Below, in pieces: positions 23,618-48,217 of a stretch of DNA of 54,766 nt (position 1 is the first letter of the stretch; each line of letters starts with the position of its first letter). The stretch comes from an uncultured Alphaproteobacteria bacterium (GTDB lineage Bacteria > Pseudomonadota > Alphaproteobacteria > RF32 > CAG-239): assembly GCA_944389095.1 (NCBI GenBank), contig CALXLC010000017.1:1-54766 (forward strand). Reading direction: 5' to 3'. The notes under the pieces are model-generated. The model saw only the letters and a program-made list of their open reading frames with translations. It was not told where the DNA came from and did not search any database. Both the position numbers and the translations under genes were made by a program.

Positions 23618-23635
23618 TTTACGCTTTAACTTTAA

Positions 23636-23700
23636 TATAAAAAGACACAAATCGACTCTCTTTTTTACTTGACAAGAGAATTTTCGGTTTGTGTTTTTTT
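23636..23700 (+). terminator. rpsT terminator
   Basis: An outer stem pairs AGACACAAA with TTTGTGTTTTT around an inner hairpin (CTCT...AGAG), ending in a long T tract. A GANTC site lies inside the loop at 23654. Confidence 0.7.
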
Positions 23701-23933
23701 GTGCCCAAAGCAAAGGAATCTGGGCGACTCTGCAAAGAATCTGTGTCAAGAAAATTAATTTAAATGTTCTTAAAATGTTCTGTTGTAATTCATGAATGAA
23801 GCTTTTAGTATTCGAATCACTTTTTGAGAGTTTGTTAAAACGACTCAGTCGGAAGATTGAAAATAATCTGGCAAACAGTTTTGAAAAGTTTTTATGTTTT
23901 CAGAACAAAAAAATGCCTCACTGATTTTGAATC
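23654..23933. promoter_or_regulatory. GANTC site cluster upstream of dnaA
   Basis: Seven GANTC sites begin at 23654, 23716, 23726, 23737, 23814, 23842 and 23929. About one is expected by chance in 280 bp. GANTC is the CcrM methylation site in alphaproteobacteria. Confidence 0.7.
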
Positions 23934-24865
23934 GTTTTTAAGAAACTGCCTGAAAAGCGGACGGTGTCATGTCCAGGGTTGTCAGATAAAATCTGCGCGG
24001 ATACAGACAACCGGGGATGAAAAAAAATTTGCAGTGCGAGACAGTTTGAAAAAAGCTGAGACGATATCGCAAATGATTTTCAAAACCGGAAAGGGGTTCG
24101 TGAGGTCCGACAATCAGCGCAATTTGCGGATGATATGTCTCCCGAGGAAAACGGCGGACAAATATCAGAACAGCAAAAGGCCACGGGGTGATGCCCAAAG
24201 CGAAGAGATTGAAAAAACGGGGAAACATATTAACGCGCCCTGTCATCCGGCTGAAGAACCGGGGAGGTTCGTCAGAAGCAGCAGAATCAAGCGGATTCTG
24301 CAACGAGAAGAGGGTATCCGGGGAGGATATTCTGACCGGAGAATTCGGCGAAAGGCCAAACCGATACGGTTTTTGCGGCGTTCTGATAAAAACAGTTTTG
24401 TTGCAAAGATGAACGGTTCGGGTAAAGAAATATCTTCGGTACGGCGGGAAAAGAAATTTCCTGAAGATTCCGCAGAGGAAGCGGAGACCGCGAGACCGGC
24501 ACAGAAAAAATTCTTAAAAGAATCCCGAGTGCCGCAGCGGGACAGGACCGATCAGGAGCAGCGTTTATTTTCAATCCTACGGCAGGCTTAAAAAATCCCG
24601 CTGAGAAGAAACAAAAGGGAAAACAGTTGCGTGAACATTCCGTTGGTCTTTTGGGCAAATGATAGTAAAGATAAAGAACAATCGGATTGTGACCGGAAAA
24701 GGGTCGTGCGGCAGTCGTTCTTTGTTTTTTGGAAAGTATGATGTTTTCATTTTTTTCAAAAGAGCGTTGTTGCATGGAGAAACCCAACGGCACGGAAAGT
24801 TGTCGAAATGGTTTGTAATTTCGGCGGAGAGTGCCGGTGCGTAATTTGTTTATGGTTTAACTTAT

Positions 24866-24871
24866 TATAAT
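24866..24871 (+). promoter_or_regulatory. Possible -10 element close to dnaA
   Basis: TATAAT lies 16 bases before the dnaA start codon, with a GGGGAG ribosome site in between. The -35 is poor, so transcription may start further upstream. Confidence 0.3.
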
Positions 24872-24887
24872 TAATTGGGGAGTAAAA

Positions 24888-26327
24888 ATGGCTGAAGAAG
24901 CAATAAAAGACAACAATTCTGTTCAGGATCAATGGGGACAGATTTGCAGCCAATTAAAAAACGAAGTCGGGGAAACAGCCTTTGACAGTTGGTTAAAACC
25001 GTTAACTCTGGGGTCTTTTAATGACGGCGTGATGAATATCTGCGTTCCGACCCGCTTTATGAGAAACTGGGTGATTACGCATTACAGCGACCGTATTCAC
25101 AAAATTTGGGAAAAGAAAAATCCCGCCATTAAAAACGTCAATTTTGTAGTTCAAGCGGTTCAGGAAGACGGTCACGGCCTTTACAGCCCGACCTGCCGCT
25201 CCCTTCTGAAAAAGATTTCTTCAACGCCGGCTCCGCAAAACATTTATCAGTCCGGTCTGAATTCTCTGGCGGCAAATGCCAACGAAACGGCTTTGAACGA
25301 TACATTGTCGGTTCCGCTTAATCCTCAATATACTTTTGACAATTTTGTTGTCGGCAAAACCAATGAATTCGCTTATGCCGCGGCGCGCAAAGTTGCCGAA
25401 TCCAGAAACGTGTCTTTTAATCCGTTGTTTTTGTATTCCGGCGTCGGTCTCGGAAAAACGCATCTGATGCATGCCATTGCCTGGCACATCAAACAACAGG
25501 ATCCGACCCGCAACATCGTTTATCTTTCGGCAGAAAAATTTATGTATAAGTTTGTCCGGGCGCTGCGCTACAAAGATACGACGGCATTTAAAGAGCAGTT
25601 TCGCTCGGTTGACGTGCTGATGGTGGATGACGTTCAGTTTATGGGCGGCAAAGACACTACGCAGGAGGAGTTTTTCTATACGTTCAACTCCCTGATTGAA
25701 GAGGGACGGCAGATTATTATTTCCGCCGACAAGTCCCCGGCGGATCTGGAAGGCATCGAAACCCGTCTGAAGTCCCGTTTGGGCTGTGGTTTGGTGGCGG
25801 ACATTCATCCGACAGATTTTGACCTGCGGATGGGAATCCTGAATAACAAAGCGCGTCAGCTCGGCATTGAGCTTCCGGAAAAAGTTGCCGAATTTTTGGC
25901 TCAGAAAATTACGTCAAATATTCGCGAACTGGAAGGCGCCCTGCGCCGGGTTATTGCCCACTCCCAGTTGCTCAGCGACAAGGAAATCACGCTGGATATG
26001 ACACAGGACGTTTTGAAAGATATGCTGCGTTCTTATGACAAGCGGACAACCATTGACGAGATACAGAAAAAAGTTGCCGAACATTTCAATATTTCGGTCA
26101 AAGAAATGCAGTCTTCCCGTCGGGCCCGCACGGTTGCCAGACCGCGCCAGATTGCCATGTATCTGGCCAAGCAGCTGACCTCCCGTTCTCTGCCCGAAAT
26201 CGGTCGTAAATTTGACCGCGACCACACAACGGTCATGCATGCCGTCCGTAAGGTGGAAGAATTGATTTTGGAAGATTCCTCACTGGCAGAAAACGTTGAC
26301 GCCCTGAGAAGAATTTTGGAAGGTTAA
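24888..26327 (+). CDS. dnaA: Chromosomal replication initiator protein DnaA
   Basis: DnaA binds and melts the replication origin. The 479-residue product has the N-terminal helicase-loading domain (about residues 8-75), a linker, the AAA+ domain with Walker A GVGLGKTH at 185-192 and Walker B VLMVDDVQF, and the C-terminal DNA-binding domain with the signature DRDHTTVMHAVRK near residue 445. All key residues are present. ATG at 24888 has GGGGAG 6 bases upstream. dnaN and recF follow on the same strand, the classic replication cluster. Confidence 0.98.
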   Translation: MAEEAIKDNNSVQDQWGQICSQLKNEVGETAFDSWLKPLTLGSFNDGVMNICVPTRFMRNWVITHYSDRIHKIWEKKNPAIKNVNFVVQAVQEDGHGLYSPTCRSLLKKISSTPAPQNIYQSGLNSLAANANETALNDTLSVPLNPQYTFDNFVVGKTNEFAYAAARKVAESRNVSFNPLFLYSGVGLGKTHLMHAIAWHIKQQDPTRNIVYLSAEKFMYKFVRALRYKDTTAFKEQFRSVDVLMVDDVQFMGGKDTTQEEFFYTFNSLIEEGRQIIISADKSPADLEGIETRLKSRLGCGLVADIHPTDFDLRMGILNNKARQLGIELPEKVAEFLAQKITSNIRELEGALRRVIAHSQLLSDKEITLDMTQDVLKDMLRSYDKRTTIDEIQKKVAEHFNISVKEMQSSRRARTVARPRQIAMYLAKQLTSRSLPEIGRKFDRDHTTVMHAVRKVEELILEDSSLAENVDALRRILEG

Positions 26328-26357
26328 AAACGTTCCGAATCCTTTAAAAAGTTGTTG

Positions 26358-26429
26358 ACGACTCATCGTTTTGTCTTCTGATTTGCGCAGTTTATGCTAG
26401 AATCGGAAGAAAATAAGACGATGAGTCGT
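26358..26429. repeat. 12-bp inverted repeat with GANTC sites flanking the dnaN promoter
   Basis: ACGACTCATCGT at 26358-26369 and its exact complement at 26418-26429 are separated by 48 bases. Each arm contains one GANTC site, and a candidate dnaN promoter lies between the arms. Confidence 0.8.
26371..26398 (+). promoter_or_regulatory. Predicted promoter of dnaN
   Basis: TTGTCT (26371-26376) and TATGCT (26393-26398) are separated by 16 bases, about 60 bases upstream of the dnaN ATG and inside the inverted repeat. Confidence 0.5.
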
Positions 26430-40377: not shown

Positions 40378-42855
<2,478 letters not shown>

Positions 42856-42921
42856 TTAAAAACATACAACAAATTGTGTTTTTCACCAAGCAAAAAAGCA
42901 AAGTTTTCCAACGTCCGGGGC

Positions 42922-42969: not shown

Positions 42970-43135
42970 GAGTCCCGTCCGAGTCTGTTTTTGAAGACGA
43001 GTGAATAAAAAATTTTTTCAGAGGTCTCAAAACGAATCTGAGTCTTGATTTGCGGCGAATCGCCTGTTTCCCTTTCGGGAATCGGAAATACTTTATTAAC
43101 CTTTTGGGTTTTAGAATCTTCTCAAACAGCGATTC
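42970..43135. promoter_or_regulatory. GANTC site cluster upstream of gyrB
   Basis: Eight sites start at 42970, 42981, 43034, 43040, 43057, 43079, 43114 and 43131. Fewer than one is expected by chance in 166 bp. Confidence 0.75.
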
Positions 43136-43319
43136 TGCAGGTTGTTGTTTACAAAGCTTTGGTATTAGATTGGGCAATTATTGGTTAAAACGTTTATTTG
43201 GGGAATTGTGTCATCCGCAAATATCGGTTGATGCGGCAAGAGCGCCCAGAACAGGCATTGAACTGTCAAGGAATGACTGCCGCCGCTTTACTATTATGTC
43301 GCTATATTTATCTTTGAAC

Positions 43320-46073
43320 TCAGTGTGCTTCGGCCCAATCCGTGCCGACGCCGACTTCGGCCACAAAGGGAACTTTGAGGCTGACAACGTTTTCCATGAT
43401 TTTTTTGAGCAGACCGCTCACCTCTTCCACCTCATTGTCCGGCACTTCAAGGACCAGTTCGTCATGGACTTGCAGCAACATACGGCCTTTTAGTCCGCGG
43501 GCGGACAATTCTTTTTCCACCCGATTCATTGCCAGTTTGATGATATCCGCCGCACCGCCTTGTATCGGCGCATTGATGGCCGCTCGCTCTGCATTGGACG
43601 CAAGACGCTTGTTTTTATCATTAATTCCGAGAATTGAACATTTGCGGCCGAACGGCGTCAGGACATAACCGTGACTGCGGGCGAATCTGACTGTTTCATC
43701 CATATAAGTTCTGATTTCCGGCATCTGACGAAAATAAGCATCAATGTATTCTTTGGCTTCCGCTGTGCTGACATTAATATTTTTGGCCAGTCCGTACGGA
43801 GAAATTCCGTAAACAATTCCAAAATTAATTGCTTTGGCGTGGCGACGCAGATTGGCGTCTACCTGTTCCAGAGGAACGCCAAAGACATGAGACGCCGTGG
43901 CCGCGTGAATATCCAAACCGGCGGCAAAAGCCTTTTGCAGATTTTTGACATCTGCCACGCTGGCCAGCAGGCGCAGCTCCACCTGGGAATAATCGGCTGA
44001 AATCAATTTATATCCCGGACGGGCAATAAAGCAGGCACGGATTTTTTTGCCTTCTTCGCTGCGGATAGGAATATTCTGCAAATTCGGATTATTAGATGCC
44101 AAACGGCCGGTATTGGCAACAATTTGCGTGTAAGTGGTATGAACCCGGCTATCTTTATCCAACAGCTCATAAAGCGCATCCGTATAAGTTGACTTCAGCT
44201 TGCTGAACTCACGCCACTCTAAAATCCGGCCGGCGATTTCAATTCCGTTTTCGGCCAACTGCTCCAGAACATCCGCGCCGGTCTGCCAGGCACCCGTCGG
44301 TGTTTTTTTGCCTTTAAACCCTTGTTTGTCAAACAAAATTTCGCCTATCTGTTTGGGGGAACCGATGTTAAACTCCTGTCCGGCAAGCTGATAAATTCCG
44401 GCTTCTATTTCATGAATCCTTTTATCAAAATAAGCGCTCAGCTCTTTTAGAGCAGCGGCATTCACCATAATTCCGCGCCGCTCCATTTGATAAAGAGTGT
44501 TAATCAACGGCCGGTCAAAATTTTCGTAAACGGCCGTTTTCTTTTCGGCAACCAGACGCGGTTTTAACAATTTGTAAAGGCGCAGGCAATAATCCGCCCG
44601 CCGGCACATATACTGCCCGGCAATTGCGCTGTCCAACGAAGAAAAAGCTATTTTGTTTTTTCCGCTTCCCACGAGCTCTTCAAGCTTTTGAGATTTCATC
44701 TCCAACATGGTTTCGGCAAGTTCATCCAAAGAATGGCCGTGGTCGGAGCTGTCTAAATCATAAGACATTACCGCCGTATCCTCCAACGGGAAGAAAACGG
44801 GTTCACCGGGCATTGACCTACCGATAAAATGCAGGGCGGTTTTGATGCCGTGACCGATTTTCAGAATCGATTTATCCGATAACAACGGAAAAAAATATTT
44901 ATTCAAAACATCCAAGGGAAGCCCCGGCTTTTTTTCGGCGGCGGCAAACAAATCAAAATGCTCGCTTTGCTTTTGGGTATTCAGCGGAATATATGCGGCA
45001 ACCCCGGGTTCAACAGCCAAAGAAAGACCGCAGACATTGTCTGTCCGGGGATTTAAACCGTCAGCAGCCACCGCAAACGCAAAAGCGCCCGCAGCCTTTA
45101 TTTTCTCAATCCACTGCCGCAGGGCGGCTTCGGTTTCAACTTGTTCATAATGGATTTCGGGTTGTTTAAATACAGTGTTTTCACCCTGCATCCCTTCAAC
45201 ATCAGAACACCGTTCACCCAGCCATTTATCTATCTTTGAGCGAAGCGAACGAAAATCATATTCGGCGACAAATTTTTGCAAAACCTCCCGCTCGGGGCAA
45301 CGGCATTCGTATTCTTCTATTGAATGTTCGACGGGAACATCTTTGCGCAGTGTTACCAGCTTGAGAGAAACGCGGGCATTTTCAATATTTGCCAAAATGC
45401 TTTCGCGGCGTTTATTTTGTTTGATTTCTCCGGCACGGGACAGAACCCCCTCCAGGGAACCGTATTCATTAATCAACTGTGCGGCCGTTTTCAGTCCGAT
45501 ACCGGGAACACCGGGCACATTATCTATGCTGTCGCCGGCCAGTGCCTGTACGTCAACAACTTTATCAGGATAAACTCCGAATTTTTCATAGACATCGTCC
45601 GGCGTAAAAAATTTATCTTTCATCGGATCGTAAAATTCCACGCCGGGGCGTATCAGCTGCATCAAATCTTTATCTCCGGAAACAATAACCGCTTCCAATC
45701 CCCGGGCCAGTGCCTTCTCGACGTAGGTGGCTATCAAATCGTCTGCTTCATATCCTTCCATTTCCAAATAATGGAGATTGAGCGCTTCCACCGCTTTGCG
45801 GATTATCGGAAACTGAGGAATAAGCTCCTCCGGCGTTTCTTTACGGGTTCCTTTATAATCAGGGAAAAAATCATTCCGGAAATTCTGCCTTTTGGCATCA
45901 AACAAAACCAGACAATATTTGCAGGGAATTTGATGCGTCAGTTTCAAAAACATGCTGGTAAAACCGTAAACCGCATTTACCGGTGTTCCGTCCGGCGCCG
46001 TCAACGGCGGAAGCCCGTAAAAAGCTCTGAAAATATATCCCGAACCATCAATAAGACAGATTTTATCAGCCAT
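43320..46073 (-). CDS. polA: DNA polymerase I
   Basis: Pol I fills gaps and removes RNA primers. The 917-residue product has the N-terminal 5'-nuclease (residues about 1-290, with GYEADD and SGDKDLMQL), a central proofreading-like domain (about 305-500) and the polymerase domain with DYSQVELR, the O-helix RRHAKAINFGIVYG and the metal-binding VHDELVLEV. The proofreading domain has lost its catalytic residues: the DxE motif is Ala334 and Ala336, the second aspartate is Ala413 and the last is Arg492. So it should polymerise and cut flaps but not proofread. ATG at 46073. Confidence 0.96.
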   Translation of the reverse strand: MADKICLIDGSGYIFRAFYGLPPLTAPDGTPVNAVYGFTSMFLKLTHQIPCKYCLVLFDAKRQNFRNDFFPDYKGTRKETPEELIPQFPIIRKAVEALNLHYLEMEGYEADDLIATYVEKALARGLEAVIVSGDKDLMQLIRPGVEFYDPMKDKFFTPDDVYEKFGVYPDKVVDVQALAGDSIDNVPGVPGIGLKTAAQLINEYGSLEGVLSRAGEIKQNKRRESILANIENARVSLKLVTLRKDVPVEHSIEEYECRCPEREVLQKFVAEYDFRSLRSKIDKWLGERCSDVEGMQGENTVFKQPEIHYEQVETEAALRQWIEKIKAAGAFAFAVAADGLNPRTDNVCGLSLAVEPGVAAYIPLNTQKQSEHFDLFAAAEKKPGLPLDVLNKYFFPLLSDKSILKIGHGIKTALHFIGRSMPGEPVFFPLEDTAVMSYDLDSSDHGHSLDELAETMLEMKSQKLEELVGSGKNKIAFSSLDSAIAGQYMCRRADYCLRLYKLLKPRLVAEKKTAVYENFDRPLINTLYQMERRGIMVNAAALKELSAYFDKRIHEIEAGIYQLAGQEFNIGSPKQIGEILFDKQGFKGKKTPTGAWQTGADVLEQLAENGIEIAGRILEWREFSKLKSTYTDALYELLDKDSRVHTTYTQIVANTGRLASNNPNLQNIPIRSEEGKKIRACFIARPGYKLISADYSQVELRLLASVADVKNLQKAFAAGLDIHAATASHVFGVPLEQVDANLRRHAKAINFGIVYGISPYGLAKNINVSTAEAKEYIDAYFRQMPEIRTYMDETVRFARSHGYVLTPFGRKCSILGINDKNKRLASNAERAAINAPIQGGAADIIKLAMNRVEKELSARGLKGRMLLQVHDELVLEVPDNEVEEVSGLLKKIMENVVSLKVPFVAEVGVGTDWAEAH

Positions 46074-46348: not shown

Positions 46349-46435
46349 AAAATTTTCCTTAACTTATTTATGTTATTGATATCACAGTTTTAAAACATTT
46401 GATGACTCGTGGCAAGCACTGATTGGCAGGGACTC

Positions 46436-48217
46436 GTGGCAAAAGCTCAGAAAAAAGTTAAAAGGACTAAAAAAAGAGAGTCAAAACAACGTCTTAAGAA
46501 TCGGCGGAGACTCTTAAAATTTTTTGGCGCGCTGGTGATAACTTTGTTAACCTATCTGGCCTATTGTTTTTTGACTCTCCCGGATATGGAAGAAGCCGTC
46601 AACCGCACCCGGCAGCCGTCAACGTCGATTATTGCGGAAAACGGCAATGACGTTCAGACTTTCGGCACGATTTATTCCGAGGTTGTGCGTTCGGAGGAAC
46701 TGCCGCAATATGTTATCGACGCCATTGTCTCCACTGAAGACCGGCGTTTTTACAGCCATTTCGGATTTGACATTATTTCCTTTACCCGGGCAATGATTGC
46801 GAATCTTTTTGCGGGGAGGTACGTTCAGGGCGGCAGCACAATAACGCAACAAGTCGCCAAAAACCTCTTTTTAACCTCTCAAAAAAGCATTAAACGAAAA
46901 ACGCAGGAATTGTTGCTGGCCTTTTGGCTGGAATACAAATTCAGCAAAGAACAAATTTTAACACTCTATCTCAACCGGGTTTATCTCGGCGCCGGCACCT
47001 ACGGCATTGAAGCCGCCAGTCAAAAATATTTTCAGAAATCTTCCCGCGACTTAAACCTGCTGGAGGCCGCTGTCATTGCCGGAATGCTTAAAGCACCGTC
47101 GCGATACAATCCCGTTGCCTCCAAGCAGCGGGCTCTGGACAGAGCCGCCGTCGTTTTGCAGGTGATGGTTGAAAATCAAACCATCAGCAAGGAGGACAAG
47201 GATGCCGCTTTGCAATTATCACTGGGACCGGAAAGAAGTTATAAGGTCGAAAACGCCAATTATTTTGCCGACTGGGTTTATAATGAGGTTAACGATTATA
47301 TCGGCGAACGCGACAACGATATTTATGTTATGACGACGCTGGACCAGGATTTGCAGGAAAAAGCGGCTCAGGCATTACAGGATACCCTGGCCCGCAACAA
47401 AGACCGCAATGTGACCCAGGGAGCTATCGTCGTGCTGGATTATTCTGGTGCCGTGAAGGCCATGGTCGGCGGTGCAGACTATTCAAAAAGCCAGTTTAAC
47501 AGGGCAACACAGGCGCTGCGGCAACCCGGTTCGGCGTTTAAACCTTTTGTTTATCTGACGGCTTTGCAACAGGGCTGGGAACCCGATGACAAAATTATGG
47601 ATGTTCCGCTTTCCATCGGTAAATGGAAACCCGAAAATGCCGACAAAAAATACTACGGCGAAGTTACGCTGGAATATGCGCTGGCCAAATCACTCAACTT
47701 GGCAACCATTAATCTGGCCGAGCAGCTGCCTAAAAACAAAATCATTAAAAACGCCAAACGGATGGGGATTACCACGTCGATTATCAATACCCCTTCCCTG
47801 ACTCTCGGCAGTTTTGAAGTGAAAGTCATAGATATGGCCACCGCTTATACGACCATTGCCAACGGCGGTTTTGCCGTATGGCCGCACGCCATCAAGGAAA
47901 TTTACACCAGAGACGGCTATCAGCTTTATCAACGCGGAATTGACGATGAAAACCGGATTTTAAGCAAACGGGACGTGAAAAAGCTGACCGATATGCTGGA
48001 GAAAGTCATTGACTACGGAACCGGACGCCGTGCCGCCATCGGCCGTTTTGCCGCCGGAAAGACCGGAACATCTCAGGATAACCGCGATGCCTGGTTTGTC
48101 GGATTTACTGACGATTATGTCGCGGCGGTTTGGCTCGGAAATGATGACGACACACCGATGAAACGGGTTTCCGGCTCCAACCTTCCCGCGGAAATCTGGA
48201 AAAAAATCATGCAATAA
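46436..48217 (+). CDS. Class A penicillin-binding protein (bifunctional transglycosylase/transpeptidase)
   Basis: This envelope enzyme polymerises and cross-links peptidoglycan. A basic N-terminus and one transmembrane segment are followed by the GT51 domain with STEDRRFYSHFGFD and GGSTITQQVAKN, then the transpeptidase domain with the active serine in GSAFKP, the SLN motif and KTGTS. About 593 residues, shorter than classical PBP1a because the OB-like insertion is missing. Start is uncertain: GTG at 46436 has AGGGA just upstream, while GTG at 46409, nine codons earlier, has none. Confidence 0.93.
   Translation: MAKAQKKVKRTKKRESKQRLKNRRRLLKFFGALVITLLTYLAYCFLTLPDMEEAVNRTRQPSTSIIAENGNDVQTFGTIYSEVVRSEELPQYVIDAIVSTEDRRFYSHFGFDIISFTRAMIANLFAGRYVQGGSTITQQVAKNLFLTSQKSIKRKTQELLLAFWLEYKFSKEQILTLYLNRVYLGAGTYGIEAASQKYFQKSSRDLNLLEAAVIAGMLKAPSRYNPVASKQRALDRAAVVLQVMVENQTISKEDKDAALQLSLGPERSYKVENANYFADWVYNEVNDYIGERDNDIYVMTTLDQDLQEKAAQALQDTLARNKDRNVTQGAIVVLDYSGAVKAMVGGADYSKSQFNRATQALRQPGSAFKPFVYLTALQQGWEPDDKIMDVPLSIGKWKPENADKKYYGEVTLEYALAKSLNLATINLAEQLPKNKIIKNAKRMGITTSIINTPSLTLGSFEVKVIDMATAYTTIANGGFAVWPHAIKEIYTRDGYQLYQRGIDDENRILSKRDVKKLTDMLEKVIDYGTGRRAAIGRFAAGKTGTSQDNRDAWFVGFTDDYVAAVWLGNDDDTPMKRVSGSNLPAEIWKKIMQ

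Follow-up and report, generated by a model that had tools for sequence, protein, structure and literature searches.

A conserved GANTC array between gyrB and polA, a probable methylation-responsive regulatory region in an uncultured alphaproteobacterial lineage

GANTC-dependent control and the array of this genome

What is known of control by CcrM and GcrA comes mostly from a few model species, in promoters that carry one to three GANTC sites. Regions bound by GcrA have a mean of 1.8 GANTC sites per kb, and the GANTC-bearing examples that were tested hold one to three (PMC3667746). The gene for DNA gyrase subunit B, gyrB, was reported to belong to the GcrA regulon of both Caulobacter and Brevundimonas, and this membership was predicted to be conserved across the Caulobacterales (PMC7987155). 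GANTC control at gyrB therefore has precedent, and an earlier note on the DNA analyzed here, which knew of no described role for these sites at gyrB, is outdated on this point. No array as dense as the one described below was found in the CcrM/GcrA literature cited.

The array lies in a stretch of 54,766 nucleotides (the window), which is one entire contig of a ~1.55-Mb assembly from an uncultured alphaproteobacterium (Table 1). The eight GANTC sites claimed earlier were re-found exactly where they had been placed (starts 42970, 42981, 43034, 43040, 43057, 43079, 43114, and 43131), as was GGCGAATCGCC, the claimed near-palindrome around one of them, at 43054-43064. The length of 497 bp given for the polA-gyrB gap is correct with the gyrB start MSSEMT (42822); counted from the first ATG (42840), the gap is 479 bp. 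A mean of 1.3 sites is expected in the 479-bp gap, and eight or more were obtained in 0.02% of 5000 dinucleotide shuffles; when the 166-bp segment was shuffled on its own, eight were never reached. Cluster density was then compared over 965,913 bp (62%) of the 1,554,758-bp assembly, scanned in stretches. Within this sample the eight-site cluster is the single densest case and the runners-up are three 166-bp clusters with five sites (starting at 23654, 26274, and 46404), all four being located at replication genes inside the window. The window as a whole is depleted in GANTC (154 sites vs 201 expected), with 6.1 sites per kb in intergenic and 2.6 in coding DNA, and it thereby agrees with the overall depletion and intergenic enrichment published as the signature of CcrM-bearing Alphaproteobacteria (PMC3973325). 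The rpsT-dnaA gap (23621-24887) is unusually long at 1.27 kb, and contains 11 GANTC sites and no recognised gene.

Table 1. Positions of the array, the module, and neighbouring features in the window
Feature	Position	Strand	Basis or remark
gyrB (DNA gyrase subunit B)	40378..42840	-	likely start 42822
gyrB promoter-like pair CTTGGT, 17 bp, TATGTT	42862..42890	-	contains no GANTC; direct reading, alignments
Array of eight GANTC sites	42970..43135 (166 bp)	.	direct count, shuffles
Conserved module	43008..43161	-	profile R1 match, E 3e-34; relatives carry it at polA-gyrB, behind recF, or ahead of autotransporter genes
TTAA-N7-TTAC-like element (CtrA full-site-like)	43085..43099	-	between GANTC sites
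CTGCAG and CAAAGCTTTG, invariant motifs that flank the gyrB-type module	43134..43161	.
Putative structured-RNA element	43230..43290	+ (inferred)	stem 43233-43238/43278-43283
Hairpins inside the RNA-like element	43244-43256 and 43265-43277		AGAAY-type loops; stems covary across species
polA (DNA polymerase I)	43320..46073	-
GANTC cluster, seven sites	23654..23933	.	rpsT-dnaA gap
GANTC cluster, five sites	26274..26427	.	dnaA end / dnaN start
Second GANTC cluster, six sites	46404..46577	.	between polA and class A PBP gene

The methylase and the regulators that would act at such sites are encoded in this genome. A 367-aa ORF matches CcrM (chain 6pbd, E 5e-155, residues 13-362) and the RAMA domain; GcrA (Pfam PF07750, E 7e-39) is present here and, with this genome counted, in 31 of the 34 genus members searched; and CtrA was identified with the NCBIfam equivalog (401 bits vs a cut-off of 350). 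Four of the eight array sites (42981, 43040, 43057, and 43131) match YGAKTCK, the extended GcrA motif as defined in PMC7987155, where about two are expected by chance. The CtrA-like element has a second half that is decayed to TTTC in this genome and intact in most relatives, among which both halves are kept and the 7-bp spacer is variable.

Conservation and distribution of the module

The gyrB neighbourhoods were compared across the genus and family, in which the relatives are MAGs. The records of those bearing the module name uncultured Alphaproteobacteria or "Azospirillum", and where the isolate name reveals a source it is animal gut. A module of ~150 bp was identified in the polA-gyrB gap of 11 of ~34 genus members and of an outgroup genome from another genus (G044). 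In the remaining genus members the gap is mostly ~100 bp long, with only the gyrB promoter inside. As array-bearing members are found in more than one clade of a GyrB tree, and in the outgroup as well, the position beside gyrB is probably ancestral. Outside the family, the regions upstream of gyrB hold at most three GANTC sites per 166 bp, and a scan for the module resulted in five hits outside the group, which is about chance level.

Retention of the sites was assessed in a nine-species alignment, with the close relative G027 excluded and the reference compared with seven species. The eight alignment windows that hold GANTC in the reference were kept in 59% of comparisons vs 16% for other windows of the module (permutation p < 5e-5), and per-base identity over the same seven relatives was 76% vs 58%. 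Across the gyrB-polA gap of relatives, where the earlier note had proposed to look for conserved sites, GANTC is thus retained well above the surrounding sequence. Within the array RNAalifold gives almost no covariation, on which ground a structured RNA there was rejected and the array is taken to act as DNA. Taken as sequence, the array is real and conserved, and is probably a methylation-responsive regulatory region.

The module has no single fixed place. Profile R1 located it after recF in eight genomes (G002, G005, G010, G011, G022, G023, G030, and G031) and at further loci in four (G003, G008, G013, and G014), with two copies in G012 and three in G003; weaker copies are found ahead of rpsJ. 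After recF and at these further loci, the module is usually immediately upstream of a gene for a large exported protein, with G022 an exception, and in the cases read these genes have the same orientation relative to the module. AIDA stalk and/or autotransporter domains were identified in four of the four genus examples tested, and the gene at the equivalent place in G044 is without them. In several relatives a surface gene is preceded by a cluster of methylase sites, which is not the case for the window copy. Of 16 autotransporter genes checked, the two linked to the module carry seven GANTC sites and the rest zero to three; the rule that every autotransporter has an array was rejected on this count, and since most of these genes lack one, the link to adhesins is restricted to about one gene per genome.

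Several other arrangements were observed. In two MAGs (loci L113 and L125) the module borders a gap of 840 bp that holds no long ORF and lies downstream of a DnaJ-like gene. In the present genome, four GANTC sites are located ~45-95 bp ahead of a TTGCTTG...TATGAT promoter upstream of rpsJ (S10 operon; L176:1056-1220), and related arrays upstream of rpsJ occur in G002, G017, and G021. The rpsL promoter of the relative G024 (L074; G024:C2 about 385223-385420) has eight to nine GANTC sites in ~200 bp, one of which adjoins the -10 element of a TTGACT-N17-TAGTAT promoter. A GANTC cluster together with several DnaA-box-like sequences was also seen upstream of a ribonucleotide-reductase-like gene, called by eye (L196:9139-9540).

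Transcription units beside the array

On the polA side, the direction that matches that of the module-linked genes in relatives, the window module is followed by no protein gene and instead by an RNA-like element. In the nine species compared, a pair of neighbouring hairpins was found, whose loops are conserved and whose stems change; 90% of cells are paired. Both sides changed in six of nine pairs, and the observed score was reached in 0 of 500 shuffles, a statistic biased upward because the hairpins were picked by eye; slid controls all scored far lower. The distance from hairpins to module was 136-190 bp in the ten species measured. A search of the gap against Rfam gave no match, a tRNA reading was not obtained, a covariance model built on the hairpins recovered no other copy of the element, and no significant thermodynamic folding was obtained for the gap (z -2.2 to +1.5). 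Identity with 6S RNA was rejected, as 6S RNA is located elsewhere in the genome. Neither a canonical promoter nor a terminator was found on either strand of the gap, so the proposed transcript remains putative. We read it as probably a small RNA, or another RNA element, that the array would drive.

On the gyrB side, ~80 bp separate the promoter-like pair from the closest GANTC site, and species without the array have this pair as well. In G012, G001, and G006 the module is 1.0-1.7 kb from gyrB, with inserted DNA between the array and the gyrB promoter; the inserted ORF was seen directly in G012. By this comparative anatomy the array is not the gyrB promoter itself, which is separate, and the gyrB-promoter reading was downgraded. 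Coiled-coil membrane-type ORFs (~250-270 aa) that are lineage-specific occur in the polA-gyrB gap of G012 (L010) and G019 (L008), and the two insertions are on opposite sides of the array.

We estimate a probability of roughly 0.55 that the array forms a distinct cis-regulatory module within the CcrM/GcrA circuit, probably involving CtrA too, which likely drives a unit oriented away from gyrB. Late in the cell cycle the eight sites would be methylated by CcrM, and a fork from an origin that, judged by a relative, is only tens of kilobases away would render the array hemimethylated at an early point of S phase. How strongly GcrA is recruited together with sigma70-RNA polymerase would then depend on the methylation state. 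The most likely direct client would be the transcription unit on the + strand of the window, which here is the short structured-RNA element next to the polA 3' end and, in relatives with the module elsewhere, mostly an autotransporter adhesin gene. The array might also help gyrB to some extent, which the reading does not require. Several observations count against this reading: two thirds of the genus get by with no module at gyrB, the gap yielded no canonical promoter or terminator, the hairpins were picked by eye and the RNA was seen at no other place, most autotransporter genes carry no array, and the fit to YGAKTCK is only about twice chance.

Alternative explanations and comparison with known systems

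The earlier note had suggested a methylation-sensitive gyrB control region, of which the regulatory region stands and the choice of gyrB as the controlled gene is in question. That the array is a GcrA/CcrM-dependent upstream activating region which tunes gyrase to the cell cycle is possible, though we doubt it. The place of gyrB in the GcrA regulon agrees with such a role, the module is directly upstream of gyrB in 9 of the 12 array-bearing genomes, and the rpsJ promoter of this genome is laid out alike, with an array and then a promoter. However, the gyrB promoter is itself free of GANTC, is kept without the array in most of the genus, and is split from it by the inserts in three species, and homologous modules elsewhere serve unrelated genes. 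Rather unlikely, in our judgment, is a portable CcrM-methylation switch, in which the GANTC-array module would exert replication-coupled or bistable epigenetic control at different loci, with adhesin genes as clients in some species and a structured RNA in others, as a GANTC counterpart of Dam/agn43 in gut Alphaproteobacteria. An improbable reading would make the array a heritable ON/OFF phase-variation switch, with CcrM and a binding protein competing over the clustered sites as Dam and OxyR do at agn43 of E. coli and at opvAB of Salmonella. It would suit the location of the module directly ahead of AIDA-type autotransporter adhesins in relatives, the gene class of agn43, and in opvAB the promoter is preceded by four GATC sites (PMC3350482). 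The window copy, however, has no attached surface-protein gene, the CtrA-like box is the sole competitor-type site identified, and the timing of CcrM by the cell cycle in Caulobacter would fit a clock better than a stable switch. A literature search found no paper that joins autotransporters, phase variation, and GANTC.

A role as part of the chromosomal replication origin, or as the second candidate origin proposed earlier, was rejected as highly improbable. GANTC sites are present in the Caulobacter origin (PMC3973325), the module is often within ~45 kb of gyrB, and the gap is AT-rich with a CtrA-like box, but the window contains no cluster of DnaA boxes (no 400-bp stretch holds more than two), the place of the module differs among species, and G012 has two copies of it and G003 three. 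In G024, which has a 388-kb contig, ten DnaA boxes are found in 400 bp of the rho-coaE gap, 48 kb from gyrB, and cumulative GC skew is flat from 50 to 200 kb and rises steadily only after ~200 kb, near rho-coaE. This locus (L065; G024:C2:204351-204640) is the likely oriC of that relative. That the array is probably near the origin is relevant for one reason alone, namely that it would pass into the hemimethylated state early in replication. Least credible of all is chance clustering, or an effect of composition in AT-rich intergenic DNA: intergenic DNA of this genome is generally rich in GANTC, yet the shuffles of the gap, the lack of a second such cluster in the 966 kb sampled, and the selective retention of the sites over deep divergence all argue against it.

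An uncultured gut lineage with small genomes is shown to possess the core circuit of cell-cycle methylation, with a concentration at replication genes. A conserved eight-site array that is separable from the neighbouring gene, and that lies upstream of adhesins in sister species, would provide a natural test of whether, through the number and spacing of its sites, CcrM methylation becomes a dose-reading clock or a phase-variable switch.

Among described systems, the Caulobacter origin (Cori) shares a CtrA-like TTAA-N7-TTA box and GANTC sites with the array, which is probably origin-proximal; unlike Cori, the array has no DnaA boxes, and in a relative the DnaA-box cluster is in the rho-coaE gap. 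Dam-dependent phase-variation regions (agn43, opvAB, and gtr) resemble the module in having a cluster of methylase sites upstream of surface genes, and the module-linked gene of relatives is an autotransporter adhesin, as in agn43. The present system differs from these in its use of GANTC and CcrM, in its larger number of sites, and in having neither a known competitor nor a surface gene in the window. With the Caulobacter promoters controlled by CcrM and GcrA (mipZ, ctrA P1, and podJ, with gyrB in the regulon), the array has in common GANTC sites in an intergenic regulatory region, a genome that encodes CcrM, GcrA, and CtrA, and replication genes as targets. The Caulobacter targets have one to three sites (PMC3667746), whereas the array has eight in 166 bp and, unlike them, belongs to a module that is separable from the promoter of the neighbouring gene and is found at other loci in relatives.
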